From positions 43,421 through 107,420 of IMG/VR virus record IMGVR_UViG_3300046543_000595: a DNA stretch of 64,000 bases; one strand, written 5' to 3'. This document shows positions 22,156 to 41,733 of this stretch, in pieces (positions within the stretch are counted from its first letter, which is position 1; every line of letters starts with the position of its first letter). This stretch comes from a virus. Position numbers and translations under genes: made by a program. The notes under the pieces were generated by a model that did not search any database, was not told where the DNA came from, and saw only the letters and a list, made by a program, of their open reading frames with translations.

Positions 22156-22182
22156 TTGACTCGTATGGTGAACTAAAGGCTT

Positions 22183-23874
22183 ATGGAAAACATCATATTC
22201 GGCCAGATCCATGAAGAGGATCTGCAACTCGGTTTCGGCACAGACGCTGTCGTGCTGCCGGATAGTTCGACGCAGACTCTTCATCGGATCGGGCTGCACA
22301 CCTTTGCCGGCATGTACAGCGTCAAGGACTTTGGCGCTATTGGAGACGGCATCAACGATGATACTGCCGCCATCCAGGCGTGTATCAATGCCGCCGGTGC
22401 CAACTCCCTGATCTGGTTCCCGCCTGGAACCTACAAGACCACAAGTCAGGTCACCGTTGCCAACAATCGAGTCTTCCTGAAAGGAGCTGGCCCCGTAGCG
22501 ACACAATTGCTATTCGCCCCGACGGCCAATGGAACATGCCTCGCGTTTGACTCCGGTCAGGAAATATTCACAGGCGGCATTAGCGGTATTGGCTTTTTCT
22601 CCAATGACTCTACCTATGTGAAGGTGGCGTTAAACACGGTACAGACTGCCGAATTCTACGTTGAGGACATCGTGGTCGGTGGAAGCGTTGTCCATGGTGG
22701 AACGCAATACTGGTCTGATGCCACAAATTCCAGCATCGGCATTCAAACTAATGGGCACGAGGCCACGGACTTCAATCGCATCTCGATTGCAGCGGACAAT
22801 CCAATCTACATTGGCAAGAACCCGAACAGCACGATTGACGCGGACCACTTTCACTTCCGCAACTGCAATCTTATCGCGAACCAAAATCACGTCATTACCT
22901 GCCAGGACAATATCTTCATCCAGCACATGTTGTTCGATGGCTATCAGGCATGGGTGAAAGGCTTCGATGGCTTCCACTACATATCGAATGGGACCGGTGC
23001 TGCAGTCGGTGCCCGAGTGATGGTTCGCTTCGACAATGTCGGACGGGAGCAGGTCGAAGATGCGACACACTACTGCTTCCGCTGCAACCTCAGCGGTGGC
23101 GACGCAATCCAGTTGTTGACGATCCGCAACGCCTACGGCCCCACTCTCAACGAAGGCGGCGGTCTATTCCTCCGTGGCATCAACGGTGCCAGCATCGACA
23201 ACTACTGGTACATCGGGAACGGCACAGCCCTCAACGCAGATGCGACCTGCGCCGACTTCATGTTCAACAACTGGAACTTCTCTGCGAACGGAGGCACTCT
23301 ATCAACGACTGGATTTACTGGGTTCTTCGTCTATCGAAGCGAAACCCAAACGCTGGGCCTGAATACCTTTAGTACCAGCGGCATCCTGAATCTAGGGAAT
23401 CTCGGTTTCATTCGTGAATTGAACAGCACGGGTGTATCCAGAAGACTCATCGGGATTCCGGCGAGCGATTTTATTACCGTGGACCCGGACGCTATTGGTA
23501 CCATCATTGGCGAGACTCTCGGTGGCGGTCTACGCATCAATCACCTTGTCCCAGCGACTCACCTCGTTTCCATCCCGTATGCCCAGAACTATTCTGCTGT
23601 GAACTCCACCAGCACGGATACCGTTGCTATTGTCGGGGTAGGAAATGCGGGATTCGGTCTCAACACGGTCAACTTTGATGCTGGCCAGAACGGAAGCGTA
23701 TTTGGGTCATGGTTAGCCATCTATCAGTATCTTGAGGGCGTTGGTATTGCGGACCCGGCGAATGCGCCGGTATCGCATGGGCGGCTATATTTCCATCTGA
23801 ACGGCGGCGGCAAGATGGAACTTAAGGTACGCTGGCCTACAGGAGCCGCTCAGGTGATCGCGACGGAACCATAG
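22183..23874 (+). CDS. Tailspike C with pectate-lyase-like beta-helix, 563 aa
   Basis: It has the same anchor as the other two spikes (MENIIFGQIHEEDLQLGFG), then SVKDFGAIGDGINDDTAAIQ and LIWFPPGTYKTTSQVTV of the Pectate_lyase_3 type. Middle blocks (ADHFHFRNCNLIA, DGYQAWVKG) match tailspike A, so A and C share the helix domain while B and C share the entry to the helix. The C-terminus is a distinct beta domain. SD TAAAGG lies just before the ATG. Polysaccharide depolymerase activity is plausible but not shown. Confidence 0.8.
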   Translation: MENIIFGQIHEEDLQLGFGTDAVVLPDSSTQTLHRIGLHTFAGMYSVKDFGAIGDGINDDTAAIQACINAAGANSLIWFPPGTYKTTSQVTVANNRVFLKGAGPVATQLLFAPTANGTCLAFDSGQEIFTGGISGIGFFSNDSTYVKVALNTVQTAEFYVEDIVVGGSVVHGGTQYWSDATNSSIGIQTNGHEATDFNRISIAADNPIYIGKNPNSTIDADHFHFRNCNLIANQNHVITCQDNIFIQHMLFDGYQAWVKGFDGFHYISNGTGAAVGARVMVRFDNVGREQVEDATHYCFRCNLSGGDAIQLLTIRNAYGPTLNEGGGLFLRGINGASIDNYWYIGNGTALNADATCADFMFNNWNFSANGGTLSTTGFTGFFVYRSETQTLGLNTFSTSGILNLGNLGFIRELNSTGVSRRLIGIPASDFITVDPDAIGTIIGETLGGGLRINHLVPATHLVSIPYAQNYSAVNSTSTDTVAIVGVGNAGFGLNTVNFDAGQNGSVFGSWLAIYQYLEGVGIADPANAPVSHGRLYFHLNGGGKMELKVRWPTGAAQVIATEP

Positions 23875-23881
23875 GAGTGCA

Positions 23882-24199
23882 ATGAACGAAGATCAGAAGA
23901 AAGCAATCCGGGCGGCGGTCCTCGAGCAGCCCGGCGATTCCAAGATTCAGTTGGAATGGTGCCTTGAATCGCAGACCGAGTACACGCGCCAGATCAACCG
24001 AGTCATGGCTAAGTTCCGGCTCGCCGACTACATGGGCGACGAGGAAACGATGAAGGCTTGCCACGATAACATGGGTGACCTCAAGGCCGGACTCAGGTTC
24101 ATCCAGTCGGAGATCGTCCGGTTGGGCGAGGATGTCAAGAGCAGGGAGCCTCTTCCCCCCATGGAGCCTCTTCCCCTCGTGAATAGAATAGAGTCATGA
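23882..24199 (+). CDS. Small helical hypothetical protein, 105 aa
   Basis: Unrecognised. It is an alpha-helical protein (MNEDQKKAIRAAVLEQPGDS, then LKAGLRFIQSEIVRLGEDVK) with a short Pro-rich tail made by a direct repeat (EPLPPMEPLPL). A clear SD (TAGGAG) precedes ATG 23882. Its stop overlaps the next ATG. The position between tail and ejection genes suggests a virion or assembly role, unproven. Confidence 0.6.
   Translation: MNEDQKKAIRAAVLEQPGDSKIQLEWCLESQTEYTRQINRVMAKFRLADYMGDEETMKACHDNMGDLKAGLRFIQSEIVRLGEDVKSREPLPPMEPLPLVNRIES
24145..24176 (+). repeat. Direct repeat of 14 bp
   Basis: GGAGCCTCTTCCCC occurs at 24145-24158 and again at 24163-24176, at the 3' end of the small helical gene. 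It encodes the duplicated EPLP tail and lies about 20 bases ahead of the next start codon. Confidence 0.8.
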
Positions 24200-24756: not shown

Positions 24757-25320
24757 GTGGGTAAGTCAGCGGCGCACCAGTCCCAACAACTACAGTCCGA
24801 GGCGGCAACACGCTACTCTAACCTCGCGACCTCGCTGATCGGCGAGGCCGGGCCGGCGCGCAACCAGGTCTCCGACTACTACTCGAACATCATCAAGGGC
24901 GGGCCGCAGGCATACGCCGCAGCGGCACCCCAGATCGCGTTCACGAAGACGCAGTTCGGCAACGCCCAGAAACAACTCGCGGAAACGGCCCCGGCCGGCG
25001 GCGCATTTATGGCGGGAAGCCGTCAACTGGCCGAGCAGAAAGCGCAGTCGGTTTCTGACGTGTATAAGAGCCAGATCAATAACGCGCTGCAATCGCTGAC
25101 CGGGATCGCGATGGGTGAGACCTCGGCGGGAGAAAGCGCGGTAGGCGGCGTATCGCACGCAGGAGATTCGCTGGCCCAACTGGCGGCATCGCAGGCTGCG
25201 GCGTGGGGTTCTGGTCTTGGCGGGATCGCCGGAGGCCTCGGGACATTCTTCGGATTGGGGGGCATGGGCGGCGGCGCGAAGCCTCCGGCGTGGACCCCGC
25301 CATACCAGGCGACGGGATAG
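24757..25320 (+). CDS. Putative internal virion/ejection protein, 187 aa
   Basis: The start is GTG 24757, fixed by SD AAAGGAGA. The protein is Ala/Gln-rich and helical for 150 residues (SQQLQSEAATRYSNLATSLI), then ends in a glycine-rich hydrophobic tail (GSGLGGIAGGLGTFFGLGG) that could insert in a membrane. That composition is typical of small ejection proteins. It is followed by two longer proteins of the same kind. No family recognised. Confidence 0.5.
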   Translation: MGKSAAHQSQQLQSEAATRYSNLATSLIGEAGPARNQVSDYYSNIIKGGPQAYAAAAPQIAFTKTQFGNAQKQLAETAPAGGAFMAGSRQLAEQKAQSVSDVYKSQINNALQSLTGIAMGETSAGESAVGGVSHAGDSLAQLAASQAAAWGSGLGGIAGGLGTFFGLGGMGGGAKPPAWTPPYQATG

Positions 25321-25326: not shown

Positions 25327-27252
25327 ATGCCAGCGATTGACGCACTCGGAAGTATCGCATCGGAGTTCAGCAAGGGATTCTTGCAGGGGCGCTTGCTCAC
25401 GGCACAGAAAGCCATTCAGGCGCATCAGCAGAACCTCGAGGATATCAAGGCGCTGTCCGAGGGTGCCGATCGGTTCAAAGACAATCCCGCCCTTCAGGAG
25501 CAGTACCTTAGCCAACTCCACGACGCGCTCGGCAAACTGCCGAAGCCTCCAAAGACGGCTACCGGCTCCCCTACCGATGCCGGCTCTGGCGGCATCATGG
25601 ACTTCTTCAAGAGCATGTTCGCCGGCAAGAAGACGGCACAATCCCAGCAGGTCGCGCCCGGCACTCCAGGGGTCGGTCCGACGGCTCCGCCGGCCCCTCC
25701 GTCGTTGTCCCCGAACAGTCCGGACAGTTTCACATTCGGCGCCCCAGGTGCATCGATGACGCCATCGCCGTCTGCCGGCATGGCGGCTCCGGCGCCGTCC
25801 GCAGAGTCTCCAGCGTTTGCGGGTGGCCCCGGTCTTCCGCAAGGTCCTGGCCTAGGTCCTGTGCCAGCGCCCGGACATGTGCTCGGTCCGAACGGCACGC
25901 CGGCCCCGGCGGCAGCGCCCGCTGTCGGCTTCGGAGTCGACACGAACCTGCCGACTCCGTACGAGGCGCAGGTATTCGGCAAAGAGAACTGGTACAAAGA
26001 TCCGCAGTACGGATTTGTGGATCCGAAGACTGGTCAGGCAACCAAGCCGCAGTTCGCGCACTCCCCGACGGCCGAGGCAGCCATGGCTCATCGGTATGCT
26101 TATTCGCATGCGCACACGGCGCTAAACGCGCTGGATCAACACATCGAGTCGTACAACAACGCGAACCCCGGCAACGCCATCGAGACCGAGGCCGATATGC
26201 TCTCCTCGCCGCTGGCTGGCGAATACAAGCACGTGTCGGAAGGAATCCGGTCGTACGAGCGCGAAGGCCTCGTTCCCGGCAGCGGCCAACAGGGCGAAAA
26301 GGGAACGCTGGATCAGTGGCGCAGCACGGCATTCGAAGATGCCAGACCAAACTACGACAAGGCGCAGCACCAGCGCGACAAGGCCATCCGGATCAATTCG
26401 AAGCCGGACGCCGTGATCACGCCGTCGGAACGTAACTGGCTGAACGGCTACAAGGCCACGCTCAAGATGGACCGGGAGGGCAAGATGTCTCCCGAAGAAT
26501 CTGAGACGCACGACGTCAACGAGGCCTCACGCGCGGTGGCCGCGAACCCGGACATGGTTTCCAATCCGGAGAAGTACGCGACCTCAACCGATCCGAAAGT
26601 ACAGCAGCAGTTCCACGCCGTCACGGACGCCCAGAACGTCCTGTCGGCACACGCCGCTAACATTCAGGCGGCGGACCGGGCGAAGCTCACTCCGGAGAAC
26701 CGGCAGTTGGCGGACTGGGCCGATAGTTACGACAAGGCTACCCCGAAGCCAACTGATCCTAAAGCCGCACTGAAGTGGCAGGCGGACAAGGCCCGCTCGA
26801 TGGCGAGCCTCTATACCGGATTCCATCCGCAGCAGGCCGGCATCAGCGTGTTCCCTGGTATGAATCCGGCGACTCAGGAAGAAGAGGTCATGGCCTACAA
26901 CCGGGCCACCGGCAAGTTGCAATCGACCGGTGCCAAGGTCAAGCCAGCGGCGTGGACCCCGCCGGAGAAGACGGTGCGCCCGATGGTCAACACGCCTGGA
27001 ATCGCGAAAACTGATTCGCGGTACAACAATCCGGCCTTCATGCAGCCCGGCGAACCGGTACAGGTTCCGGATGTCTACAAACTGATCGAGGAGAACCGCC
27101 AGAATCCGAACCGGGTGCCGATGAACGTACTTGAAGACATCCTGCAATATCAGAAGAACTTGCCGGATGAGGACAAGGCCGAACTGAAAAAGTACGTCGG
27201 GAACCAGACACGCCCCGACTTCAACGCACCACCAAAACCGCCGGCCAGATAA
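25327..27252 (+). CDS. Putative internal virion protein, Pro/Ala-rich, 641 aa
   Basis: N-terminal 85 residues are helical (SIASEFSKGFLQGRLLTAQK). Residues 90-220 are a long Pro/Ala/Gly-rich low-complexity region. The remaining 420 residues are again helical and charged, with motifs such as HRYAYSHAHTALNALDQHIE. No enzyme motif is visible. The position directly upstream of the giant polyvalent gene and the composition suggest an ejected or core protein. Confidence 0.5.
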   Translation: MPAIDALGSIASEFSKGFLQGRLLTAQKAIQAHQQNLEDIKALSEGADRFKDNPALQEQYLSQLHDALGKLPKPPKTATGSPTDAGSGGIMDFFKSMFAGKKTAQSQQVAPGTPGVGPTAPPAPPSLSPNSPDSFTFGAPGASMTPSPSAGMAAPAPSAESPAFAGGPGLPQGPGLGPVPAPGHVLGPNGTPAPAAAPAVGFGVDTNLPTPYEAQVFGKENWYKDPQYGFVDPKTGQATKPQFAHSPTAEAAMAHRYAYSHAHTALNALDQHIESYNNANPGNAIETEADMLSSPLAGEYKHVSEGIRSYEREGLVPGSGQQGEKGTLDQWRSTAFEDARPNYDKAQHQRDKAIRINSKPDAVITPSERNWLNGYKATLKMDREGKMSPEESETHDVNEASRAVAANPDMVSNPEKYATSTDPKVQQQFHAVTDAQNVLSAHAANIQAADRAKLTPENRQLADWADSYDKATPKPTDPKAALKWQADKARSMASLYTGFHPQQAGISVFPGMNPATQEEEVMAYNRATGKLQSTGAKVKPAAWTPPEKTVRPMVNTPGIAKTDSRYNNPAFMQPGEPVQVPDVYKLIEENRQNPNRVPMNVLEDILQYQKNLPDEDKAELKKYVGNQTRPDFNAPPKPPAR

Positions 27253-27261: not shown

Positions 27262-30200
27262 ATGGCTGAAACACTGACGACTCCGCCGCCGGTACAGGCG
27301 CCAACCACGCCAGCCGCGCCGCTCGGTCGGTCACAGCAAATCGATTCGATCATCAAGGCCTTACCGCCGGATCAGGCCGCCGACATCCGGTCGAAGTTCG
27401 ATCAGACGCTAGGCCACGCCGAACTCGAGCAGTACGTACGCGGCCTGCAGTTGCCGTCTGAATCCAAGAGCCGGTTGTGGGATGCCTACTGGGACACCGA
27501 GGCTCCGAAGGTCCGACCGACGCCGCTGACTCCGAAAGAGCCTTCCACATGGGACATCATCAAGGGCGCGCCGGCCGCTGCCCTGCAACTCGGCAAGGAA
27601 CTGCAGGCACCAAACCTGGCGAAGGCGACCCCGCTGGTCCCCGTTCCTGCTCCTCCGGTCACCGGCACGAACCGGCAGACGGTCACACCGAACACGCCGG
27701 CCACCCCGACCGACCTAACGAATCCGGAACTTCGGCTCCCGGCCCCGGCCGCTCCGCCAAAGCCGCTTTCGATTGCCGGCACTCACGGTAATGCGCTAGT
27801 CATGAGCGACGGTTCCCAGACGACACAGAATCCGAACAACCTGCGCATCTATCACGATTCTGGCTATCCTGAACTAACGCAGACCGATCTGCTGAAACTC
27901 CAGCGCGGCGAATCGCTGACGCCGACCGGTCAGGCTGAGCCGGGGACGATCAAGAATCTGTACAACCGTCCGATCTTGAAGAATCCGGACGGCTCGATCT
28001 CGACCACGCGTTCGATGTCGTTCGACGAGGGCGGCAAAGAGGTCGTCGTTCCGACGGTCGTTGACGGCAAACTGCTTAGCGATAAGGAAGCGATCGACCG
28101 GTACCACAAAACCGGAGAGCACCTCGGCAAATTCACGAACGTCCCAGACGCCGAAGCGTTCGCGCAGAACCTCCACGAAAGTCAGGCGCAGCGCCTCGGG
28201 TTGCCGATCGACGAGGATCACGACAGGAACCGGCAGGTGTCGCCATTCCGCGACACGTCGGAGAACGAGACGCCGGAGGCACTGCAGGCGCGGGTTGCCG
28301 GCCTTGAGCGCGGCGCGATTGCATCAACCGGCGGAATGAAGCCGGAGGAGCCGAAGCCGTGGACGGCCCTCGCGCAGGATCTGTACCGGCGCACGGTGCG
28401 CGGCGGGGAGAGCATGCTATCCGGCGCCACCCTTGGCGTGGCGCAGGCCGCGACCGGCACGATCCACATCCCAATCCTCGACAAGAATTTCAAGGTCATC
28501 CCGGGCACCGAAGAGAAACTGGAACAGTTGGGCATGGCGGCGCCGGCGGATAAGTGGCAGGCGGCGACAAATGTCGTATCCAGCCTGATCGGTGCGAGCG
28601 CACCGTGGGCAAGGATCTCCCGGCTGCTAGCTCCGCTGTATGGAACCGCTGAGACCGGGATTGCGGCGAATATCCTGTCGCGGCTCGAGAACACGCTCGG
28701 TACGGCGTTTATCGTCGGAGCGGTCGAACCGAAAGAAGACACAGGGGAGAAGAATCCGCAGGTCGGATTCCACGAGACGCGTCTTGAGCACATCGCCACG
28801 ACCATGGGAGCGGCCGCAATCTTCCATACGATCGCAGAGACGGCAGGCGGCATCGGTACGGCGGCAAAGATCAAGGCAATTAACGATCTCAAGGCTGAGG
28901 TATCCGAAGTTCTGTACGGCCGGCGCCCGGACACGTTCGATCCGGAGAGCGCGAAGAAGATGGCTGGCGACCTCGTCGATCAGGCGGTCGCCGAGCAGGG
29001 TGGCGTCGAGAACGTCTCCCGGAAGTCGATCAAGGACAAGGCCGCGAGAGTCAAGGGTGCATCGAAGGAGCCGCTCGCCGTCCCCGGGCAAGCGCAGGTC
29101 GAAGCGCCAGCCGGTGGACCTGGCCGTCCAGCAGGTGAGACCGGAGGGCCGGCGCCGTTCGAGGAGCCGGGAACCGTCGAAGGCCCTGGATTCACGGCAA
29201 AGCCAGGAGCGCCAGCGGAAGCGGGTGCGCAGCCGCCACTCCCGGGTCCGGGCGAAGAAGTACCGTTCCCGCCCGGAGCTCCGAAGCCGGGCGAGCCTCC
29301 AGCTGCCGCAACAATCTCTGGTGGTAAGACCAGCACCGTCATCCCCGCCGCCGACGTCGAGACAGTGCAGGGACCGAACCGTCAGGAGATCCATCCGGAC
29401 GCGATCCCCGAGAACAAGAACCTGCCGAAGGGCATGGAGACGCCGGATGGCGACGTCAACCACGGCTCCTCGAGCGTCGGCCTGAGCGAAGAGGGCAAGA
29501 AGGACGCGGCCAAACTCGCCGCGGCGACCGACCTGCCGAAGAAGATCTACACGAGCGACGCGCAAAGGGCGGTAGAAACTGCGCAGGTGGTCCAAGGCGC
29601 TCACCCGGACATCCAGGTCGTGCCAGAGCGCGGATTACAGGCGTGGGCGCTTGGAGGCCTCGAGGGACAGCCGATGAAGGATGTCCTGCCGAAGATCAAC
29701 GCGCTGGCGCAGGATATGCCGGATGCGGCACCGAGCGGGCGCGGTCCGATCTCCACCAGGGACGGACAGAGCTTCCATCAGTGGGAAGATCAACTCGGCC
29801 CAACGGTCCAGCGGATCATGGACGAGTTCGAGAAGAATCCGACGGAGAGCGTCGGCATCCTGAGCCACTCCCGCGTCTTCCAGTGGATCCACGCGTGGCT
29901 TGAGGGTGGGATGCCGGAGGACTACCGGATCGACCCGTCGAAACTCCTCCGCGCGTACGCCGATACGGGTGGCCGCGAGTATTTGTACAAAGACAAAGAC
30001 GGCTGGGTGCTCGACGACAAGAAGCCACCGAACGGTCAGGCCAGCATCCAACTGATCCGGCACGCCCATGAGCGTCAGGCGAACGTGCCAGCCGGCGCTG
30101 TTCCGCCTCCACCGGCAGAAGCGCCACAGCCGCCTGCGCTCAAGCCGAAGAAGCAGTTCGTGATTGCCGGCAAGGACGTGGCCGGAACCTATCAGGGCAA

Positions 30201-33200
30201 GGTTGTCACTGCGGACGGTACCGTCCACGAGCGGCATCCGAACTATCTCAAGACGATGAAGGCGTTCGGTTATCCGGAGTTGACCGACGATCAGTTCCAG
30301 TCGATGGGCGGAAAGATGCCGGAGACGAAGCCGGTCTCGGCGCCGGAAGCGCCGAAGCCCCTCCCGCCCGTCGCTGGACCGCCGGTCGCGGCGCCGCGCG
30401 GTAGCTATTCGGTCCGCCAAACACCAGACGGCAAGTTTGAAGTCGTGCGCCCGAATGGCGCGCCGCTTCCCCGTACTCCGTTTACCGATCAGGCGTCGGC
30501 GCAGGGTGTCGCCGACCAGATGCAGAAGGAGTACGAGACGATGGCGGGCGGTCTACCGCCAGCCGCACCTCCTGCTGCCGGTCCGGCTCCTGTGCCAGGT
30601 CCGAAGCCGGCCCCGGCACCAAAGCCTGCGCCGAAACCGAAGCCGACAGGCAAGGCGAAGAGCGACGCGGAGATCGTGAAGGAGGCGCTCAGCGAGACGC
30701 CGAAGACCGGCGCGATCGACGATTTGATGAAGGATCTCGCGCTGGGGCCGGAGAGCGCGATCAATCCGAAGAAGATTAGCGACTTCGTCAGCGAGATGAA
30801 GCGTTCGAGTAACCTCGCGCTCAAGGGTCACGCCATGCCCGACGAACTCCAGCGGATGGTCGACCGGGCCGAGAACCTTGCCGACGAAATCGATCAACGA
30901 TATGAGTCTGGCAAGACTGGCGGCATCGATAAACTCGAGGGCGAACTTGACGACTTGATTGATCGTATCGATTCCGAGATGTCACAGTCCGAGGTGGAGA
31001 ACGTCTTATACCCGGAAGATGCTGAGGCCGGGACCGAAGAAGATCTCGCCCGGCAATACGACGAACTGGTGCGCGGCCTCTATCCAAAAGACGAAGTCGT
31101 TGAGCGCATCAAGGACATCCTCGACAAGGCGCGCTTTGGAACCGGCCACACTGGACCGCGCGAACTGAATCTCGGATCCGACGACGAACTTCTCGCCGCC
31201 GCGAAGGACGCGTACGATCGGGCAAACTCCATCCGCGAACGTCTGAAACCACCGAAGCCTAATGAAGTTGCCCGCGTGAAGCAGTGGCTCGCCGATCGGC
31301 AGAATATGATCAGCGAGATGAAGACCGGAGAGGGCAAGGCCGCTGCCGGTCTGGATCCGCGCATCGTGAAGACGCTCGGCGGCAATCTCTATAACGGCGA
31401 TCTCGGCGTCGTCGCCGTGCGCGAGATGCTGCAGAACGCCCTCGACTCCCTGCGCGGACTGGACAATCCGGAATCGCGCGGCGTAACGATCGAGGTCGAT
31501 ACTAACAGGCGGACCATCTACATGGCCGACAACGGCTCCGGTATGACGCCGGAAGTCGCGCAGAAAGAACTGATGGACATCGGCGGCAGCAAGAAGGCCG
31601 AGGGTTCCTCCGGCGGGTTCGGGATCGCCAAGGTGGCCATTTTTGCCAACGCCGACGAGATCGATATCCATACGGTCGCCGAAGATCCGAAGACCGGCAA
31701 GCGCTTCGTCACGACACTCTACGGTAAGGGGGCAGATTGGGTCGATCCAGAACTAGGCCTGGACGTCGAGACGCATCCTGCTGACGAGGAAATCACTGGG
31801 ACCAATATCCGGATCAAACTCAGCCCGGACGTCACCATGGGGCAGTTCTACATGGGCCGGTTCGCGGGCGACATGATGAAGTCGACATCGCTACTGCCGT
31901 ACCGGGTCAGTTTCAAACTTAACGGACTGTTCATCGAACCGAGTTCCGTGCGGCTGCAGAAACTGGCACAGGTCGAGACGCCTGGATCGTCTGCCGATAT
32001 TCATCTGGGCGACGGGAAGGAGAAGGTTGGCGACTACGGAGCGGTTACCTATTCCATCTTGAATAACGGTCTGTACCAGTTCAACAACAGCATCAGCGTG
32101 CCGAAGCATCTCTCCGGAACCATGCTGCCAGGCCCGCTCGTCGTCAACATCCATCCGAAGGCCGGCCCCGAGGAGGCTGGATATCCATTCGCGCCGGACC
32201 GTGAACGCATCCGCGATCACGACCTGACGGAAAAGATACGGGAATGGCTGAGTGATAACTTCGTCCTCCGCGCGCTCGAGGGCGAGAAAGCCGCCTACGT
32301 CGACCGGATACTGAATGCCCCTGTCATCCCTGGACCGAATTCGCTCCCGATCGTTGACACCTCTGGCAATCTTCCGCCGGACCAGGTCGAAGCGCTGTCG
32401 AAGCGCCCGTACGTCCAGCGGCTATCGGACCAGATCATGTCGTCCATGGACACGCTGCTTGGCGCGATCAACCGGGGGCGAATGGACGGCGAACTCGATC
32501 CAGCCGCTATCGGCATCGGCCTCGGCACCAAATATCTCGGTATCAATATCCACGGCAAGATGCTGGATTGGGATCACAACCTGATCCTCGTGAACCCGTA
32601 CACGATCATGGACGAGGTCCTCTCCGCCATCCAGTTCCGGCACATCGCCCCCACGGAAGGGCCGGCCATGGTAGCGGCTCGCATTGTCTCGACGCTCGTC
32701 CATGAACTGAGCCATCAGGCCGTGCGTGATCACGATGAAAAGTTCGCAGGCGAGCTCTCCAGAAACATCGACCTCACGCTACTGGACTCGGCGCACGTGC
32801 AGGCCGAACTGCAGGCCGTACTGGAACACAACGGCGGCGAGGCATATAGTGGACTCTATGACGACCTCACCAACCTCCGGCCTCAGTGGGCAGGAGAAAA
32901 CATATTTGGCAAGATTAGCTCCAGCGTTGCAACCGGAGGAGATGAGCAAGCCGGTGCTGAGGATGTTGCTGGAGAAGGCGCAGTCGGAGGGCGTGGACGC
33001 GGCGAAGGTCTACCGAGCGGCGGTCCAGGTGCGCAACCCGAAGTGGCCGGCGGCGCCGGACCTGAGCGAAGTGATGCCGACATCACCCAACTCGACCCCG
33101 GTACCCGGGCCAAACTCCTAAAGCTCGGCGCCTACCTCTATCAGACATCGCCCGACTGGCCAGCGTGGTCGCACGCCATGAGTGCGGCTGGCGACTGGGT

Positions 33201-36200
33201 GGCACCTTACCTGCCGACAGCATATGCTTTAATCGACGACGTGGCGGCCGCGACCGGGAAGAAGCCGGTATCCGCTCCGCCGCCACCAGAGAAACCGGCA
33301 CAGGAGCCGACCGCCGGACCGCCCGATCGCGGACCGCCGCCGGTACCAGCGCCGCGAGGAGAATCCGATGTCAATGCTAAGCCAACAACCGGAGTCGGAA
33401 ATGGAGAGGGTCCAGCGGGCGAACCGACTGGCGGAGCAGGAGGTGGACCGCCTGCCGAAGGACCACGTGGAGAAGGTGGGCCGGGAGAACCTGGTGTCGG
33501 ATCTGGCGAAGGAGTATCTCCAGGGAGGCCTTCCAAGCCAGGAGCTCCGAGAAGACCTCAACAACAGCAGCCTCGGCCAGCCACCGGAGAACGTTTTACC
33601 CTAGTCGGGAAAGAGCCGATCGATCTGACGCCACAGCAGCGGCGCGAGATCAACGCCAAGGCGATTGCGATCGCCGGTGCGAAGAACCAAGGCGACCCGC
33701 TCACGCCAGAAGAGCAAGACATCCTTCGCCAGTACACTGGCCAGGGTGGGCTGGGAACCGCCGATGAAGGCGTCCTCTTCCAGCATTACACTTCCTACAA
33801 AGTCGTTCAATGGCAGTGGGACAAACTTGCTGCCATGGGCTATCCGCTCGAAGGCGCGAGCATGCTCGAACCAGCGGCCGGCGTCGGTAACTATCTCGGC
33901 TTCGCGCCTGCTGGCGTGCGAATGACCGCCGTCGAGATCGATCCGATTGCGGCGAAGATCACGCAGTTGCTGTACCCGGACGCGACCGTCCATAACAAAC
34001 CGTTCGAGAATTTCAATAGCCGGCAGAAGTTCGACATCGTCATGTCGAACGTACCGTTCTCGGCCAGCCGAGGCGAACTCCGCTACGCGAAGGATGCGCA
34101 GGAATACAAGGACATCGACACGCTGCACGATTTCTTCTTTGTGAAGGGATTGGACGTGGCGAAACCGAACGGCCTCGTATTCTTCCTGACGTCGACCGGC
34201 ACGATGGACAAAGCCGGAGACGAGATCAGGAAACTGATCAACGAGAAGGCGGAGTTCCTCGGCGCGTACCGCACACCAGCTGGTGAGTTTAAAAAGAACA
34301 CCCAGTACGGCGGTTCTGTCGACGCCATCCTGCTGCGGAAGCGTACGCCCGAAGAGATCGAAGCATTCAAGGCGCTAAAGGAAGGCAAGATTGCCACCGT
34401 CGAGGACCTCGCTAAGATGGGGTTCACTCGTCCGTTCGGCTACAACAAGGACTGGGTCGAATCCACAACGACCGACAAGTTCTCGAAGCCGGATCAGCCG
34501 CCAGCCCGCATCTCGAAATACTACATCGAGAACCCGGGGCAGATGTGGGGACAGCCGGAGGCCGGCTATGGCGTGCGACAAGTCACGCGCATGGGCGTCC
34601 GTCCGACAAAGCCGATCGAGGACTTCATCGGAACGAGCCTTGGAGATCATATCCAGTGGAAGCCGGAAGAGACGGTCGCGGCGCCGAACGCCGAGATAGA
34701 GACCGAGAAGCCGGTCGGCAAGGCGCCGGAAGGTGTACGCCATGGCACACTGATCGTCAGGCCCAAGACGAATGATCTGGCATTCGCCCACTCGGACGGG
34801 AATATTTACCCCGCGTTCCCGAAGGGGCTACCAGAGAAAACGCAGGGACGATTGCTCGCAGCCGTCAATATGATGGACATGGCGGACCGCCTGTACGGCG
34901 CGCTCCGGCAGAACGACGATGCGACGGCGAATAAGATCCGGCCACAACTGAAGGCCGCGATCACGAACTACCGTTCACAATACGGCGACAAGACCGGCAA
35001 GAAGTTAGGTAAGCCTCCTGGCTACGATCCGTTCCTGTGGAGATTCCTGAACGGCGGAACGGAGTCGATGGTGCTGTCGTTCGAAGATCCGCGGCGGTGG
35101 CTGCTGGCCGGTCTGACGGACGACGAAGGAAAGTTTGCCGACATCTTTGATCGCAACACGATCTACCGCCAACCGGTTGTCGCCCGAGCGTACAACGATA
35201 AAGATCTCGCTGATGTCGCCAAGTTTGTTTACGAGCAGACCGGCGAATTCGCGGCCTCTCGTCCGGAGATCGAAGCGAAGTACAACGGGGAGCCGGCGGA
35301 TATCGACAAGGACCTCGTGGGTAAGCCCGGCTTCAGCATCGAGAGCCTCAGCGCGGATGGCAAGCCGACGATCAATATCGACGATGAGTACATGTACGGC
35401 CCGATCTGGCCAAAGATCGATCAGACCGAGGCGATGCTCCAGCAGGCCACCGACCCGCAGATCGTATCGCAGTTGAAGCATCAACTCAGCGGGCTGCACG
35501 CGGCGCTGCCAGAGCAGGCGACGATCCAGAACCTGCCGGTCGACCCGTTCGCTTCCTACATGGACCAGGGAACGGTTATCCAGTGGCTTCGATCGTTCGG
35601 CATGAACGGCATTCAGGAATACGTTCCAGAGAATAACCGGACCATGTGGGAGATCGGAGGAGCCGGCCGGCTCAAACTGAACGTGATCACCGATCCGAAA
35701 ACGAACCAGATGGCCGACCACGAATTTACGGCCGAGGATATTCAGGGGTTCCTGAACCACAAGCGGCTCACGAAGTGGATTGATACCGGTGAAACCGATT
35801 ACCGCGGCAATCCGAAGAGGAAAGAGATCTTCGATCTCGCCAAACAGCGAATCATCGATCAGGTCGGGAACCATTTCAAGGACTGGTTCTCGCAGAATCC
35901 TAAGCTCACCGAGCACCTCGTACCGACGTACAACCGGATGTACCGATCCTATCGGCACCGGTCTCCGTCCTCTCAGGAAGTTCAGGTCAACGGCATGTCT
36001 GGCACGTTCAAGGGCAAGCCATTGAAGATCGGTAACCACCAGTGGGAAGTCGCCAATCAAATGCTGCATATGCGCTCTGGTATCAACGGCCAGGGTGTCG
36101 GTAGCGGTAAGACCATGGCGATGATCATGCTGGGCCAACTGGCAAAGCAGCGTGGACTGATCAGGAAGCCGATATACGTCGTGCCGGCGAAGGTGATCAA

Positions 36201-39200
36201 GAACTGGGGCTACGAGATCATGCAGATGTTCCCGAACGCCTTCATCCTCGACACCGGTGGCATGAACTCGAAGAACCGCAACAAGACGCTGCACCGAGTA
36301 GCGTCCAGCGATGCGGACTTTGTCCTGAGCACCTACGAAGGGATGAAGGAAATCCCGCTACGCTCCGCCGAGGAGTACATCCAGGAGGACCTGCGGGAAC
36401 TGAGCGAGCGCCTCCATGCGGTCAGCCAGAAGAACGACAAGAAGACGGAGTCCATGATTCAGGAGCAGATCCGGAAATACTCCGAAAAGTTGGCCAAGAT
36501 TCAGGACATGAAGAAGACGAATGCGATCTTCTTCGAAGATACCGGAATCGATTCGATCATCGTGGACGAGGGCCACAACTACAAGAACGCTCCGGTTCAG
36601 TACATGGACATGTCGGATTGGCTGCACGCCGGATCGTATTCCGATCGCGCGGCCGACATGGGCTACAAGACTCGGTACATTCACGAGCGCAAGGGTGGCC
36701 GTCCAGGACAGAACGTCTGGATGGCGACAGCGACGCCGACGCCGAACAACCCGATCGAAATCTATTCGATGATGAAGTACATCGCGCCGGACGAGTGGAA
36801 GCAGCGCGGCATCCACAACGCGGGCGACTTCGTCGAGCAGTTCGGCATCGTCGGACAGGTCGAGGAACCGTCGACGACCGGAGTGCCGAAGATCCGGACG
36901 GTCTTCCTTGGCTACAAGAACCTGAACGATCTTCGGTCGATCTTCCGCCGCTACATCGATATGCGTCCGACCAGTGCCTTTGCGCTGAATCGTCCGACGC
37001 CGGCGTACACCGAGCACCTGCTGAATCCGTCGCCTGCGGTGATCTATGAAGCCGCCCGGGTAGCCGAGTTGGATGAATGGGTCACGAAGCATTTCGCGGA
37101 CGCAGCGGCCCATGGATGGAACCATCTGTCGGTCCTGACACTCGCGCGTAAACTGGCTGGCGATCTCGCCATCTACAACCCGACGAAGTATGCGAACTCG
37201 TTGGGGCGCGAAGGCTCGAAACTGAACGAGATCATCCGGCAGGTCAAAGATTCCGAGCAGGGTGACAACACCCAATTGATCTTCATGGATATCTACCGGG
37301 CCGTCGCCCACGTGGAGGAAGGCAGCAAGGAAGAGAAACTGATCCAGGCATGGCTCGCCAAGAAGGGCGAGGGTGAACTGCACGGCGTTGATGTCGATGA
37401 CGATGCTGCGGCTCTCGTTAACGATCTCGAGGCGTCGTCGACCGCAGCCAGCGACACGAAAGATAGCAGCGACAAGGCGACTCCTGGCAAGATCAAGACC
37501 TACGAATTGGTCAATGTCCACAAGTCGATCAAGGAAGCGCTCATGGCCGCCGGCATCCCGGAAGACCAGATCGCGATCATCAATCAGGCAACGAATAACA
37601 GCGCGGCGAAGAAGTTCAAAGTGCAACAATTGAACGCCGAAGGTAAGGTGCGCTTCCTGATCGGGACCACGTCATCGATGGGCGAGGGCATGAACCTACA
37701 GGCGAACACGACCGACATCCATCACTACGATGTTCCGTGGACGCCGGCCGCATTGGAGCAGCGCGAGGGCCGCGGTGTCCGCCAGGGCAACAAGCAGGAA
37801 TCGGTACGTATCCATCGGTACGTCGGCAAGGGAACGTCGGACGCCAAGATGTACGCGATGCTGGCGCGCAAGGCCCAGTGGAACGAGAACCTCTGGTTCG
37901 GTGACGCCGATCAGGTCATGGACTTCGATCAGGACCATCGCAACTACGCCGACATCTCAGCGGAGGCCCAGATCGATACTTCGACGCTCGAGTATTGGCA
38001 GGTCTCGCGGCGCATCACGACGAACACGGAGAAGTTGGCCGAACTTGAGACCGATGTCGTCGCCGAAGACCGGCGGATGCTCAAGCAGGTACAGGATGAG
38101 ATTGCCAGCCGCGAGCAGAAGATCGAACAGTACACGGCGGACATTAAGGCCGGTCGCGGCAACGCCGACTACACAGCGCGCCTGATCGAACAGCACCGCA
38201 GCGCTATCGCGAACCTACGACAGGAAGAGCAGACCCGCGCCGAGACGGTCGCTAAGGCGGAGAAGGCTATAAACGAAGCACGCAAGGCGATCGAGGCGGA
38301 CAAGGCCAAACTGAAAGAACTGATTCCGGTAATGAAGGAAAAGGGCATGCCCGTCCTGCCGGAACATGAAGCGATGGCCACCGAGCCAACGCCATCGCCC
38401 GATCAGCCGCCAGTGCCTGGACCGAACGCCATGGGTTCACCATCGCCGGTGCCCGCACCTCCAGAGCAACGGGAAACGACGCTGAGTATCCCTACCAGAG
38501 ACGGAAAGGGCCAGACGGTGAAGGTGTACCCGGTCGTGCCCGGACTGGCCGTTACACCTGAACTGGAAGGCGAAGGCTTCGAGATCTTGCACACTGTATC
38601 CGGAAACCGAATCGCAAAGGCACCATCGATCGGGAGCGGGGTATTGCTAGCGAAACGCCTAGCCAAACTGGGCGACTGGAACCGCTCTGCGGAGGCACTG
38701 CAGGCCGATCCGGCAATCGTGGATGGCGTGCGCAAGGAACTCGGGCAGAAGGGCGCTGTGAACTTCTGGCAGAAGAGGCCTCCTCCATCGATTCAGCCGA
38801 ACCTGATCCCATCTCCAGATCCGGAGATGCGGAAACTGATTGATGTCCCAGCTGGTCAGCGTAACGTCTGGCAGGAGATCAAGGACATCCCGGGGCAGGT
38901 CTACCGCTTCATGACCGTCGCCCGCTACAACGAGAACCTCCGCGATTGGCCGGGCTTTTCCGAAGAGGTGCGGCGCGCGCAGGAGCTTGTGCGGGACGCA
39001 TCGGCCCAGACGCAGAAGGAGATGGAGAAGGTCGTCAAGGGACTGGACCGCTCAGGCTACGATGCCTTCCGTTCGATCGTCTTCTGGGAAGACATGTACG
39101 AGACGGCCGCCCGTGAAGGCGAAGACCGTGTCCCACTGCCTGGCAAAGACCAACTGAACCGTATCGATGCAGAGATCGCCCGGTTGAATTCGATTGCCAC

Positions 39201-41733
39201 TCCTGCCGTGCGCGATGCCGTCGATCGATTCCACGGCTGGATGGAAGACGTCTGGAACGAACTCGCCAGACGCGGCAAGGTCGACCCGGATGAAGGCCGG
39301 ATCAAATACTTCCCGAATCAGATCATCCGCGGCATCGGTGATGCGATTGACCGGCTACCAGGTCTGCCGACGCGCATGCAGAACCCGCGCCGGCTCTACC
39401 TGCGTAACCGCAAGGGCCATCTCGTGCCGCACGATTCGGACTGGATCCGAGTGATGGAGCAGTACGGTACGCGGGTTTATCTGCATAACATGATCGACGA
39501 TTTCATCAGCCGTACCGCCGATGGCCACGATTTCAACCAGTGGTTGGACGATACACAGAGGCAACAGTTGGTCGGCAACAGGACCGGTCAGGCCAAGATC
39601 GGACGGTCTTACGTGCTCGACACCTCGACGCTGACAGTGAAGCAGAAGGACGAGATCCTGACGGCCAGCCGCGGCGGCCCCGGCTACACCGGAGAACTGC
39701 CGGACAATATCGTATTGAAGGGATTCCAGTTCAACCCAGGCAACGTGATCTACCCGGTGCGTGCGATCAATGACGAGGTGATCTGGGATGCCGTGAAGGC
39801 CGGTATGGACGAACTGTCCATCGACGTCAACGCATTCCGGAACGCGGCGCTATCATCCCCGGTGCCGCCACAGTTGGAGACCGATACCGGCGAAGAGTTG
39901 ACGCGCCCAGCGCTCGCCCTCGGCGGCAAAAACAAGATCTATCTGCTGCCGGCGCCGATCGCAGACAAACTGGAACACTTCCGGGAGAACAATCTCGAGA
40001 ACCCGTTCACCGAACTCGCCCGCGCGGCCACCCGCGCCTGGAAGGGGACGGTGATCAACTCGTCCGGGCTGACGTACTACACGCACATCACGATCGGCAA
40101 CGAGATAGCCGCTTACGCCGAGGATCTCGGCTCGCTGATGAAGCAGCCGGCGGCGCTCGACGCGCTCAGAAGCAAGATGACGCCGCCGCAGTACCAGCAG
40201 GTGATGCAGTTAGCCGAGGACTTCAGGATATGGAACTCCGTCTTCTACGCGGGAAGCCAGCCTCGAGCGGTCAACGCGCCGGCCTTCCGGGAATTCCGCA
40301 ATCCGAACTGGCGCGACAACCCGATCGGCGATCTCGTCCGCGAATGGCAGCGCGCCGGCCAGATCGTTCAGTCGTTCCCGAAGTTTGCGAAACTCATGGC
40401 CGACTTGGAACGCGTCTCGAACGGGCAACCGGTTGTCGTGAAAGGGATCAGCCTTGGCGGACTGGATCCGAAGTCGATGCTGGCGTTGGGCAAGGTGGCG
40501 CGTGAGTCCATCCACCCCGACTACGGTGCCGTATCGCCCCGCATGGACCTGTTCTACTCGGTGACGTTCCCGTTCTCGGTCTTCCACGTGAAGATTATCG
40601 GGCCGTGGATGCGGCGTATGGCGCACACCGGGAAGTTTTTCCCCGGTGACGAGTTTCTGCTGAAGATGGTGCTCGGTCTATTCATCAGCACCTTCGTCTG
40701 GAATCACCTGCTGTATCCGGAGATCGAGAAGAAGCTCGCCGACTGGCAGCGGAACATGATGCACCTGAACACGCCATTCCACGACGAGAACGGCAGACCG
40801 GTGATTCTCGCCATGGAGACGCCGACCGATATCGTGAAGCAGTGGGGCGGTCTCCACACGCTCGAGTCCAACCTCGACCGGGTGCTCGACGGGAAGTCGA
40901 CGCTCGAGGATGCCGCGCGCCAGCAGTTGGAAGACATGTTTGGGCATCAGCCGCACGGCGGTCCTCTACCGACGGCGCCGGCCGCCATGCTCTACCAGTT
41001 GCTCAACCCGATGATGAAGACGTACATCGACCTGCAGGCGAACAAGGACTCGTTCACCGGGCAGGATATCGTCTCGAAATCCGAGCCGAACCTCTGGGGC
41101 GATCCGAGCAAGGACAACCCCCAGACGGATATCGGCAAGCGCCTACAGCGAGAATATGTCGCAAAGAAACTGATCTCACCGTACATGCAGTTGATGCGCG
41201 CCGAACAGATGGACAGCCCGGACTCGCCGGTCTGGAACTGGCTGACCTCGAACGGGCCGTTCGCCTGGAAGCGGGCACTCGGTATCCGATCGGTCGATCC
41301 GAACGGTCCGGACGTGAAGGACTGGTACAACGACCGGAACTGGAATCAGTCGCTCTACGACGTGAAGATGTACAAGGTTGCCGACGCCTTCGTGATGTGG
41401 GAGTCCGGCCAGATCTCGCTCGACCAGCGTGACGCCATGATCGAACCACTGCTGGAGCAGCCGGGCCCGAACCCGACCGGCCCGCACCCGTTCTCGGCTC
41501 AGGCTGGATCCGAGCCGAGCGATATCCAGCGGATGCGGGAGAAGCCGCAATACCAGATCCGTGTGGTCGAAGGCCTGATGCACAAGACAACCGATCCGGA
41601 ACAGAAGAAAGCGTATCTCAACGAACTGGACGCGTTGGAATATCAGATCCACCGCAATAGTTTCAAAGCAACCCCAGACCGCATCCGTGGATTTATCGGG
41701 CAACCGCCGGTGCCGGCGCCGGTGACCCATTGA
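27262..41733 (+). CDS. Giant polyvalent virion/anti-defence protein, 4823 aa
   Basis: One uninterrupted frame of 14.5 kb. Domains in order: 228-315, a block (NLYNRPILKNPDGS, later HLGKFTNV) common in phage virion megaproteins; 370-545, hydrophobic helices; 715-940, a histidine-phosphatase-like region (H734, H869); 1366-1600, GHKL ATPase with E1388/N1392 and DNGSG at 1423-1427; H1814-E-L-S-H1818, a zinc-protease HExxH; 2190-2370, N6-methylase with EPAAGVGN (2203) and NVPF (2263); 2930-3540, SNF2 helicase with GxGxGKT (2945-2951), DEGH (3102-3105) and QREGRGVRQGN; 3565-3690, coiled coil; 3850-4820, a C-terminal domain like those ending other polyvalent proteins (LPD38 type), with a transmembrane-like helix at about 4464-4485. 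Methylase plus helicase resembles P1 DarB. Pro/Gly-rich linkers separate the domains. It is probably packaged and injected with the DNA (inference). Confidence 0.85.
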   Translation: MAETLTTPPPVQAPTTPAAPLGRSQQIDSIIKALPPDQAADIRSKFDQTLGHAELEQYVRGLQLPSESKSRLWDAYWDTEAPKVRPTPLTPKEPSTWDIIKGAPAAALQLGKELQAPNLAKATPLVPVPAPPVTGTNRQTVTPNTPATPTDLTNPELRLPAPAAPPKPLSIAGTHGNALVMSDGSQTTQNPNNLRIYHDSGYPELTQTDLLKLQRGESLTPTGQAEPGTIKNLYNRPILKNPDGSISTTRSMSFDEGGKEVVVPTVVDGKLLSDKEAIDRYHKTGEHLGKFTNVPDAEAFAQNLHESQAQRLGLPIDEDHDRNRQVSPFRDTSENETPEALQARVAGLERGAIASTGGMKPEEPKPWTALAQDLYRRTVRGGESMLSGATLGVAQAATGTIHIPILDKNFKVIPGTEEKLEQLGMAAPADKWQAATNVVSSLIGASAPWARISRLLAPLYGTAETGIAANILSRLENTLGTAFIVGAVEPKEDTGEKNPQVGFHETRLEHIATTMGAAAIFHTIAETAGGIGTAAKIKAINDLKAEVSEVLYGRRPDTFDPESAKKMAGDLVDQAVAEQGGVENVSRKSIKDKAARVKGASKEPLAVPGQAQVEAPAGGPGRPAGETGGPAPFEEPGTVEGPGFTAKPGAPAEAGAQPPLPGPGEEVPFPPGAPKPGEPPAAATISGGKTSTVIPAADVETVQGPNRQEIHPDAIPENKNLPKGMETPDGDVNHGSSSVGLSEEGKKDAAKLAAATDLPKKIYTSDAQRAVETAQVVQGAHPDIQVVPERGLQAWALGGLEGQPMKDVLPKINALAQDMPDAAPSGRGPISTRDGQSFHQWEDQLGPTVQRIMDEFEKNPTESVGILSHSRVFQWIHAWLEGGMPEDYRIDPSKLLRAYADTGGREYLYKDKDGWVLDDKKPPNGQASIQLIRHAHERQANVPAGAVPPPPAEAPQPPALKPKKQFVIAGKDVAGTYQGKVVTADGTVHERHPNYLKTMKAFGYPELTDDQFQSMGGKMPETKPVSAPEAPKPLPPVAGPPVAAPRGSYSVRQTPDGKFEVVRPNGAPLPRTPFTDQASAQGVADQMQKEYETMAGGLPPAAPPAAGPAPVPGPKPAPAPKPAPKPKPTGKAKSDAEIVKEALSETPKTGAIDDLMKDLALGPESAINPKKISDFVSEMKRSSNLALKGHAMPDELQRMVDRAENLADEIDQRYESGKTGGIDKLEGELDDLIDRIDSEMSQSEVENVLYPEDAEAGTEEDLARQYDELVRGLYPKDEVVERIKDILDKARFGTGHTGPRELNLGSDDELLAAAKDAYDRANSIRERLKPPKPNEVARVKQWLADRQNMISEMKTGEGKAAAGLDPRIVKTLGGNLYNGDLGVVAVREMLQNALDSLRGLDNPESRGVTIEVDTNRRTIYMADNGSGMTPEVAQKELMDIGGSKKAEGSSGGFGIAKVAIFANADEIDIHTVAEDPKTGKRFVTTLYGKGADWVDPELGLDVETHPADEEITGTNIRIKLSPDVTMGQFYMGRFAGDMMKSTSLLPYRVSFKLNGLFIEPSSVRLQKLAQVETPGSSADIHLGDGKEKVGDYGAVTYSILNNGLYQFNNSISVPKHLSGTMLPGPLVVNIHPKAGPEEAGYPFAPDRERIRDHDLTEKIREWLSDNFVLRALEGEKAAYVDRILNAPVIPGPNSLPIVDTSGNLPPDQVEALSKRPYVQRLSDQIMSSMDTLLGAINRGRMDGELDPAAIGIGLGTKYLGINIHGKMLDWDHNLILVNPYTIMDEVLSAIQFRHIAPTEGPAMVAARIVSTLVHELSHQAVRDHDEKFAGELSRNIDLTLLDSAHVQAELQAVLEHNGGEAYSGLYDDLTNLRPQWAGENIFGKISSSVATGGDEQAGAEDVAGEGAVGGRGRGEGLPSGGPGAQPEVAGGAGPERSDADITQLDPGTRAKLLKLGAYLYQTSPDWPAWSHAMSAAGDWVAPYLPTAYALIDDVAAATGKKPVSAPPPPEKPAQEPTAGPPDRGPPPVPAPRGESDVNAKPTTGVGNGEGPAGEPTGGAGGGPPAEGPRGEGGPGEPGVGSGEGVSPGRPSKPGAPRRPQQQQPRPATGERFTLVGKEPIDLTPQQRREINAKAIAIAGAKNQGDPLTPEEQDILRQYTGQGGLGTADEGVLFQHYTSYKVVQWQWDKLAAMGYPLEGASMLEPAAGVGNYLGFAPAGVRMTAVEIDPIAAKITQLLYPDATVHNKPFENFNSRQKFDIVMSNVPFSASRGELRYAKDAQEYKDIDTLHDFFFVKGLDVAKPNGLVFFLTSTGTMDKAGDEIRKLINEKAEFLGAYRTPAGEFKKNTQYGGSVDAILLRKRTPEEIEAFKALKEGKIATVEDLAKMGFTRPFGYNKDWVESTTTDKFSKPDQPPARISKYYIENPGQMWGQPEAGYGVRQVTRMGVRPTKPIEDFIGTSLGDHIQWKPEETVAAPNAEIETEKPVGKAPEGVRHGTLIVRPKTNDLAFAHSDGNIYPAFPKGLPEKTQGRLLAAVNMMDMADRLYGALRQNDDATANKIRPQLKAAITNYRSQYGDKTGKKLGKPPGYDPFLWRFLNGGTESMVLSFEDPRRWLLAGLTDDEGKFADIFDRNTIYRQPVVARAYNDKDLADVAKFVYEQTGEFAASRPEIEAKYNGEPADIDKDLVGKPGFSIESLSADGKPTINIDDEYMYGPIWPKIDQTEAMLQQATDPQIVSQLKHQLSGLHAALPEQATIQNLPVDPFASYMDQGTVIQWLRSFGMNGIQEYVPENNRTMWEIGGAGRLKLNVITDPKTNQMADHEFTAEDIQGFLNHKRLTKWIDTGETDYRGNPKRKEIFDLAKQRIIDQVGNHFKDWFSQNPKLTEHLVPTYNRMYRSYRHRSPSSQEVQVNGMSGTFKGKPLKIGNHQWEVANQMLHMRSGINGQGVGSGKTMAMIMLGQLAKQRGLIRKPIYVVPAKVIKNWGYEIMQMFPNAFILDTGGMNSKNRNKTLHRVASSDADFVLSTYEGMKEIPLRSAEEYIQEDLRELSERLHAVSQKNDKKTESMIQEQIRKYSEKLAKIQDMKKTNAIFFEDTGIDSIIVDEGHNYKNAPVQYMDMSDWLHAGSYSDRAADMGYKTRYIHERKGGRPGQNVWMATATPTPNNPIEIYSMMKYIAPDEWKQRGIHNAGDFVEQFGIVGQVEEPSTTGVPKIRTVFLGYKNLNDLRSIFRRYIDMRPTSAFALNRPTPAYTEHLLNPSPAVIYEAARVAELDEWVTKHFADAAAHGWNHLSVLTLARKLAGDLAIYNPTKYANSLGREGSKLNEIIRQVKDSEQGDNTQLIFMDIYRAVAHVEEGSKEEKLIQAWLAKKGEGELHGVDVDDDAAALVNDLEASSTAASDTKDSSDKATPGKIKTYELVNVHKSIKEALMAAGIPEDQIAIINQATNNSAAKKFKVQQLNAEGKVRFLIGTTSSMGEGMNLQANTTDIHHYDVPWTPAALEQREGRGVRQGNKQESVRIHRYVGKGTSDAKMYAMLARKAQWNENLWFGDADQVMDFDQDHRNYADISAEAQIDTSTLEYWQVSRRITTNTEKLAELETDVVAEDRRMLKQVQDEIASREQKIEQYTADIKAGRGNADYTARLIEQHRSAIANLRQEEQTRAETVAKAEKAINEARKAIEADKAKLKELIPVMKEKGMPVLPEHEAMATEPTPSPDQPPVPGPNAMGSPSPVPAPPEQRETTLSIPTRDGKGQTVKVYPVVPGLAVTPELEGEGFEILHTVSGNRIAKAPSIGSGVLLAKRLAKLGDWNRSAEALQADPAIVDGVRKELGQKGAVNFWQKRPPPSIQPNLIPSPDPEMRKLIDVPAGQRNVWQEIKDIPGQVYRFMTVARYNENLRDWPGFSEEVRRAQELVRDASAQTQKEMEKVVKGLDRSGYDAFRSIVFWEDMYETAAREGEDRVPLPGKDQLNRIDAEIARLNSIATPAVRDAVDRFHGWMEDVWNELARRGKVDPDEGRIKYFPNQIIRGIGDAIDRLPGLPTRMQNPRRLYLRNRKGHLVPHDSDWIRVMEQYGTRVYLHNMIDDFISRTADGHDFNQWLDDTQRQQLVGNRTGQAKIGRSYVLDTSTLTVKQKDEILTASRGGPGYTGELPDNIVLKGFQFNPGNVIYPVRAINDEVIWDAVKAGMDELSIDVNAFRNAALSSPVPPQLETDTGEELTRPALALGGKNKIYLLPAPIADKLEHFRENNLENPFTELARAATRAWKGTVINSSGLTYYTHITIGNEIAAYAEDLGSLMKQPAALDALRSKMTPPQYQQVMQLAEDFRIWNSVFYAGSQPRAVNAPAFREFRNPNWRDNPIGDLVREWQRAGQIVQSFPKFAKLMADLERVSNGQPVVVKGISLGGLDPKSMLALGKVARESIHPDYGAVSPRMDLFYSVTFPFSVFHVKIIGPWMRRMAHTGKFFPGDEFLLKMVLGLFISTFVWNHLLYPEIEKKLADWQRNMMHLNTPFHDENGRPVILAMETPTDIVKQWGGLHTLESNLDRVLDGKSTLEDAARQQLEDMFGHQPHGGPLPTAPAAMLYQLLNPMMKTYIDLQANKDSFTGQDIVSKSEPNLWGDPSKDNPQTDIGKRLQREYVAKKLISPYMQLMRAEQMDSPDSPVWNWLTSNGPFAWKRALGIRSVDPNGPDVKDWYNDRNWNQSLYDVKMYKVADAFVMWESGQISLDQRDAMIEPLLEQPGPNPTGPHPFSAQAGSEPSDIQRMREKPQYQIRVVEGLMHKTTDPEQKKAYLNELDALEYQIHRNSFKATPDRIRGFIGQPPVPAPVTH
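32942..33121 (+). CDS. Candidate nested out-of-frame ORF in the giant gene, 59 aa
   Basis: In the +1 frame relative to the giant gene, ATG 32942 opens a 59-codon frame (MSKPVLRMLLEKAQSEGVDA, then AKVYRAAVQVRNPKW). The peptide has balanced composition and helical periodicity, while the giant frame here is a Gly/Ala-rich linker. GGAGGAG lies immediately upstream, though only about two bases from the ATG, closer than optimal. The frame is actually open from before 32726, so it may equally be the remnant of a longer frame. Coding status unproven. Confidence 0.35.
   Translation: MSKPVLRMLLEKAQSEGVDAAKVYRAAVQVRNPKWPAAPDLSEVMPTSPNSTPVPGPNS
33368..33604 (+). CDS. Candidate nested out-of-frame gene in the giant gene, 78 aa
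   Basis: In the same +1 frame, ATG 33368 is preceded by a good SD (GAGGAGA, about 33356-33362, spacing near six). The peptide is charged and strongly helical (ESEMERVQRANRLAEQEVDR, then DHVEKVGRENLVSDLAKEYL) and ends at TAG 33604. The overlapping giant frame is a Gly/Pro-rich linker between the protease and methylase domains. SD, start, composition and length together make this a good dual-coding candidate. No family recognised. Confidence 0.45.
   Translation: MSMLSQQPESEMERVQRANRLAEQEVDRLPKDHVEKVGRENLVSDLAKEYLQGGLPSQELREDLNNSSLGQPPENVLP

Follow-up and report, generated by a model that had tools for sequence, protein, structure and literature searches.

What does a virus gain from encoding a single protein of 4823 aa, and what is that protein made of? 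This question is raised by a virus record, IMGVR_UViG_3300046543_000595 (107,420 bases), of which we analyzed a 64,000-nt stretch (bases 43421-107420), referred to as the window herein. The giant ORF (27262..41733, plus strand, as for its domains and the cassette genes below) opens with ATG, runs without an internal stop, and takes up 13.5% of the record. Its start codon lies 9 bases 3′ of the stop codon of the preceding gene. When the helicase part of the giant was used to scan IMG/VR, intact homologous ORFs turned up in four other viral contigs, namely L005 (4179 aa), L006 (4141 aa), L007 (4529 aa), and L008 (4174 aa). Upon searching phage records, we found no close relatives at the DNA level, and the GHKL, C-terminal, and phosphatase parts of the giant had no true relatives there.

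An earlier note on this DNA had read five enzyme-type regions in the frame, a phosphatase-like region, a GHKL ATPase, a protease, a methylase, and a helicase, and had named domain searches and structure prediction as ways to check them. Pfam analysis of the giant bore out four of these, with matches to His_Phos_1 (residues 735-888, E 1e-14), HATPase_c_3 (1384-1494, E 8e-7), Eco57I methyltransferase (2244-2328, E 3e-6), and SNF2 plus Helicase_C (2928-3117, E 3e-12, and 3441-3509, E 5e-7), while the protease stayed at the level of a weak motif. The N6-adenine methylase (residues 2125-2378; 33634..34395) contains motif IV (NVPF), and the SNF2-type SF2 helicase/translocase (residues 2928-3510; 36043..37791) contains Walker A/B, TATP, and QREGR motifs. 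Near the N-terminus, residues 216-310 (27907..28191) form an ejection-protein domain with ∼50 to 54% identity to a podovirus “DNA transfer protein”/IVP-C-like protein. The C-terminal region (residues 3700-4805; 38359..41676) is kept in L005 and weakly in L008, and it belongs to no database family. A PDB search gave no match for gene g99 or for the first 723 residues of the giant. With the exception of the protease, the domain identities are established computationally.

In canonical branch-1 histidine phosphatases, the RHG strand opens the fold. In the window phosphatase (residues 733-945; 29458..30096), RHG is instead the last strand, ∼190 residues downstream of its usual place. The HMM matches of L005, L006, and the window start past the RHG strand, and the strands GGIYFVRHGETAWN, GVYFIRHGATNWN, and IQLIRHAHERQAN, respectively, follow ∼190 residues further. 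This displaced RHG(A) catalytic strand covers residues 929-942 of the giant (30046..30087), and because it comes last in the domain, the phosphatase extends beyond its HMM match, to about residue 945. When the L005 domain was used as a phmmer query against PhoE (1h2e), the matches were crossed: residues 217-229 aligned with PhoE 4-16 and residues 11-133 with PhoE 19-136. We also scored the domains against a doubled profile made from canonical bacterial and phage sequences. The bit scores rose from 76.1 to 83.7 for the window, from 100.4 to 118.6 for L005, from 94.8 to 111.5 for L006, and from 67.8 to 86.3 for L025. Every permuted domain except that of L026 gained score and aligned through the junction, and canonical proteins lost ∼1 bit.

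Structure prediction gave the same strand order. An AlphaFold model based on nine sequences (pLDDT 86.7, pTM 0.85) was confident and placed RHG on the final strand (E208-212 of the model). Among the matches listed by Foldseek for this model, there were only branch-1 histidine phosphatases (best E 4.6e-7), with a sequential TM of ∼0.6, as expected for a domain with one displaced strand; against BFVD, the top match was weak (TM 0.44). The permuted domain also recurs elsewhere. A viral scan found it within large proteins of L025 (1600 aa), L026 (1026 aa), and L029 (3151 aa) and as free-standing genes in L020/L021 (231 aa) and in L022 and L024 (236 aa), together with four canonical phage relatives. 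Scanning viral records once more for the phosphatase added no further contig, and the best 80 matches in a scan of bacterial genomes were all canonical. Taken together, the crossed PDB matches, the doubled profile, the free-standing genes, and the AlphaFold model show computationally that the window phosphatase is circularly permuted. The earlier note was right that a phosphatase domain is present but had missed its permutation, its recurrence in other phages, and its copies as separate genes. In the freely readable literature, we did not find circular permutation of a histidine phosphatase described, and as far as our searches reach, it is apparently undescribed.

Past the phosphatase is an HSP90-type GHKL ATPase (residues 1375-1551; 31384..31914), which NCBIfam assigned over these residues to the HSP90 family protein PRK14083 (E 2.4e-9). 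It carries an N-box (EMLQNALD), a G1 box (DNGSGM), and a G2 box (GGFGIAK). Further along the chain is a putative zincin metallopeptidase (residues 1760-1850; 32539..32811), where HELSH at 1814-1818 is followed by HDEKF; together with sub-threshold matches to WLM (E 0.036) and Wss1 (E 2.2), this makes a zincin protease plausible. The single-sequence structure model of the GHKL-HExxH module, with no alignment behind it, reached a pLDDT of 32 and was uninformative. By blastp, L005 lacks window residues 1046-1943 (30397..33090), the segment that holds both regions, and the GHKL region had no match anywhere in the records of L005-L009. Viral scans by exact 8-mers, which catch fairly close relatives only, returned no relatives of the GHKL-HExxH module, and a scan of 399 genomes returned GHKL-only proteins lacking the HExxH module. 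Two candidate GHKL relatives were rejected, H80 as a bacterial HtpG fragment and H81 as an unrelated GHKL protein. Among the relatives found, the module appears unique to the window lineage, but given the reach of 8-mer scans, its rarity may be overstated.

The N6-methylase precedes the SNF2 helicase in one chain, which is the DarB-like order, and PHROG analysis matched the giant to phrog_11801 (E 3e-191) and to phrog_10089 (“DarB-like antirestriction,” E 2e-146). These matches identify the methylase-helicase core as the DarB-like dyad known from polyvalent proteins. Moreover, the giant joins several disparate domains in one phage-encoded chain, as polyvalent proteins do, although Pfam found no LPD and no MPTase-PolyVal match in it. 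The methylase-SNF2 dyad and the concept of multidomain polyvalent proteins of up to 12,242 aa that are injected are already established (PMC5512222). The PHROG annotation and this published class agree with the polyvalent architecture with a DarB-like methylase-helicase that had been proposed from the letters of the DNA. As a whole, then, the giant is a polyvalent/DarB-type protein with an apparently undescribed phosphatase topology. Assignment to a specific defense system was rejected, as PADLOC matched the giant only through SNF2/methylase stretches of a generic kind, from DISARM, BREX, and others.

Comparison of the giants indicates how they are built. The core (approximately residues 2045-3700) is the only part common to all complete giants compared, with 34 to 56% identity in L005-L008 by blastp. 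A later scan, this time using an alignment of the core, brought in L147 (4172 aa), L148 (at least 4320 aa), and L149 (3409 aa); the L148 giant (L148:3-12962), which is open at its 5′ end, combines a DarB-like core with a long C-terminal region. Ends and inserts vary among the giants: L006 combines the phosphatase with a weak transglycosylase match, L007 has a SprT-like match, and L008 has a second methylase of N6/N4 type (Pfam E 1e-14). By eye, the L008 giant (L008:3092-15616, 4174 aa) also shows a P-loop-like GVSGAGKTSS a few hundred residues past this second methylase. The 1600-aa protein of L025 matches both ends of the L006 giant and has the phosphatase but lacks the methylase-helicase core; because both ends are kept without it, the core itself looks like cargo on a scaffold. 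A series can be drawn from L025 (phosphatase on scaffold) through L006 (with methylase-helicase) to L005 and the window, with GHKL-HExxH added in the window, which suggests that giant polyvalent proteins grow by insertion of cargo into an ejection protein. The earlier proposal that the five activities form one undescribed system was not borne out, since relatives put different cargo sets on the same core, and an ejection protein with variable cargo is the better description.

The surroundings of the gene bear on its delivery. The record has annotated genes for terminase, portal, major head protein, and several tail spikes, and a tape-measure protein was not recognized in any annotated gene; this combination makes a short-tailed (podovirus-like) particle likely. 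Inside this structural cluster, the giant is the third gene of a cassette, after a 187-aa gene (24757..25320) with the position and size of T7 gp14 and a 641-aa gene (25327..27252) with the position and size of T7 gp15. The T7 proteins gp14, gp15, and gp16 measure 196, 747, and 1318 aa and are encoded in the same order (PMC8954989). The order of the two neighbors is kept in L005, in which the 187-aa protein is 55% identical, and the 187-aa gene is also present in L006 and L007. In the P22-like phage Bas106, the product of the third ejection gene, annotated “DNA transfer protein,” has a homologue of residues 216-310 close to its N-terminus, and its gene comes after that of a protein annotated “released from the phage upon host infection.” The transglycosylase match of L006 is sub-threshold and lies near its N-terminus, and the window copy of the giant has no such domain. 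Hydrophobicity analysis of the giant revealed marginal stretches only, near the C-terminus (best Kyte-Doolittle value 1.57 at 4466). The cassette position and the shared ejection-type N-terminal domain lend good contextual support to a predicted delivery of the giant into the cell with the DNA, as the earlier note had proposed.

Several other features of the record deserve mention. Three tail-spike-like proteins (window 14027-15742, 15746-17440, and 22183-23874) have a common N-terminal region, with 52% identity over ∼107 aa between the second and third, which suggests several receptor-binding spikes. Upstream of the window, L003:509-4062 (record bases 20509-24062) contains a dense cluster of 31 tRNA genes on one strand that cover most amino acids. 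A paralogous gene pair (window 54039-54506 and 57593-58054; 79% identical, starting MKALTLWQPWASLV) looks ASCH-like. Lastly, a 315-aa gene (window 55349-56296) has a start, VLSLGAGVQSTTLYL, that by eye resembles PAPS-reductase/DndC-like proteins.

Could the giant or its permuted domain be artefacts of assembly or duplication? The ORF comes from a single metagenomic record, which could speak for a chimeric assembly or missed stops. However, stop-free homologous giants occur in several separate metagenomic records, and the codon-position GC (0.63/0.44/0.75) holds the signal of a normal gene along the entire ORF. Because L005-L008 carry intact homologues, we take the size as real, with chance and assembly error excluded, and an artefact of this kind is scarcely credible. 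It is also very improbable that the C-terminal RHG is a remnant of a second, partial phosphatase copy left by tandem duplication, with no permutation at all. A permutation usually arises through duplication and the subsequent loss of both ends, and an “AHGDE” upstream of the L005 phosphatase domain could be read as a trace of it. Against a second copy, the single genes of 231 and 236 aa comprise exactly one domain, from just before the second motif to just past RHG, with no upstream RHG in any frame of L020 or L024. Moreover, the doubled profile crosses the junction as one piece, and the confidently modeled fold has its final strand at RHG.

Two further rival readings concern the activity of the phosphatase and the stage at which the giant acts. 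The phosphatase may be a degenerate, noncatalytic binding or spacer module that leaves the methylase-helicase as the sole working enzyme, an explanation we find doubtful yet worth serious attention. The second catalytic His is replaced by Asn, Ser, or Thr in the embedded copies of L005, L006, and L029, the RHG arginine is also lost in L026 and L029, and the window copy reads RHA rather than RHG. Because three embedded copies lack the second His, catalysis may not be the conserved role. Nevertheless, the window retains a complete catalytic set (R769, E801, H869, R933, and H934), all five residues are kept in the free-standing L020, L022, and L024, and the equivalents of R769, E801, and H934, the last being the RH histidine, are invariant in nine of nine sequences. 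The pattern suggests that embedded phosphatases decay in some lineages as single genes stay intact. Somewhat less likely to our minds is that the giant is unpackaged and made in the infected cell, where it would modify replicated phage DNA and alter the host. Methylase-helicase fusions are indeed known outside virions, on plasmids (PMC5512222), but here two ejection-type genes immediately precede the gene within the structural cluster, and the same chain contains an ejection-protein domain.

We lean, with some reserve, toward the giant as the third ejection protein of a podovirus-like phage, gp16-like by gene order, that serves as a scaffold with acquired enzymes and is injected and active. 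Packaging, ejection, all activities, and the substrate are what we infer in this reading. The giant would be packaged in the capsid and enter the cell together with the DNA or before it. Its DarB-like methylase-SNF2 module would move along the incoming DNA and methylate it or shield it against restriction. In the first minutes of infection, the permuted phosphatase would dephosphorylate a small molecule or a phosphoprotein of the host. The HSP90-type ATPase and the HExxH domain may help the chain refold after portal passage or may cut it into pieces. A broader and quite tentative proposal is that tailed phages possess an unrecognized family of permuted histidine phosphatases, delivered by the virion as a giant fusion or from a neighboring gene, whose task as infection begins would be to dephosphorylate an immune signal or a phosphoprotein of the host. 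In the L029 giant, the permuted phosphatase shares the chain with a 2H phosphoesterase (E 1.5e-7) that has a sub-threshold match to the anti-CBASS protein Acb1, a combination that fits a counter-defense setting but is no proof of it. The same protein (L029:6189-15641, 3151 aa) also has an FtsK gamma domain. A histidine-phosphatase fold circularly permuted in nature would, as far as our searches reach, be a novelty, and it sits where phages keep their injected proteins. The 231-aa L020 offers a compact, expressible protein for tests of which phosphate is removed when a phage enters the cell.

How does the giant compare with known systems? Like the polyvalent proteins of PMC5512222, it strings unrelated enzyme domains, including the methylase-SNF2 dyad, along a mobile-element chain; in the main text of that paper, zincin peptidases are common and injection is predicted. 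Unlike them, it carries a phosphatase and a GHKL/HSP90 domain, neither of which (nor phosphatases, GHKL, or HSP90 in general) is mentioned in that main text, and it lacks a Pfam LPD match. Like the gp16-type proteins of T7 and P22 (PMC8954989), the giant is third in a small/medium/large ejection cassette; a P22-like phage carries the same N-terminal domain in its third ejection protein, and the relative L006 has the sub-threshold transglycosylase match near the N-terminus, as in T7 gp16. It differs in its 4823 aa, compared with a reported range of 609 to 1337 aa for gp16-like proteins (PMC8954989), in its enzymatic cargo, and in being without clear membrane segments, of which gp16-like proteins have two. 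With P1 DarB and phrog_10089, it shares an N6-methylase and an SNF2 helicase in one chain, but P1 is not a podovirus, and the giant, located in an ejection cassette, has in addition the phosphatase, the HSP90-type ATPase, the HExxH region, and ejection domains. DarB-like antirestriction is further characterized by presence in the virion and protection in cis against type I restriction, which for the giant would be a prediction. Lastly, the window domain has the fold and all five catalytic residues of branch-1 histidine phosphatases such as PhoE, CobC, and PGM, and with its RHG strand last rather than first, it represents a circularly permuted subgroup of them.
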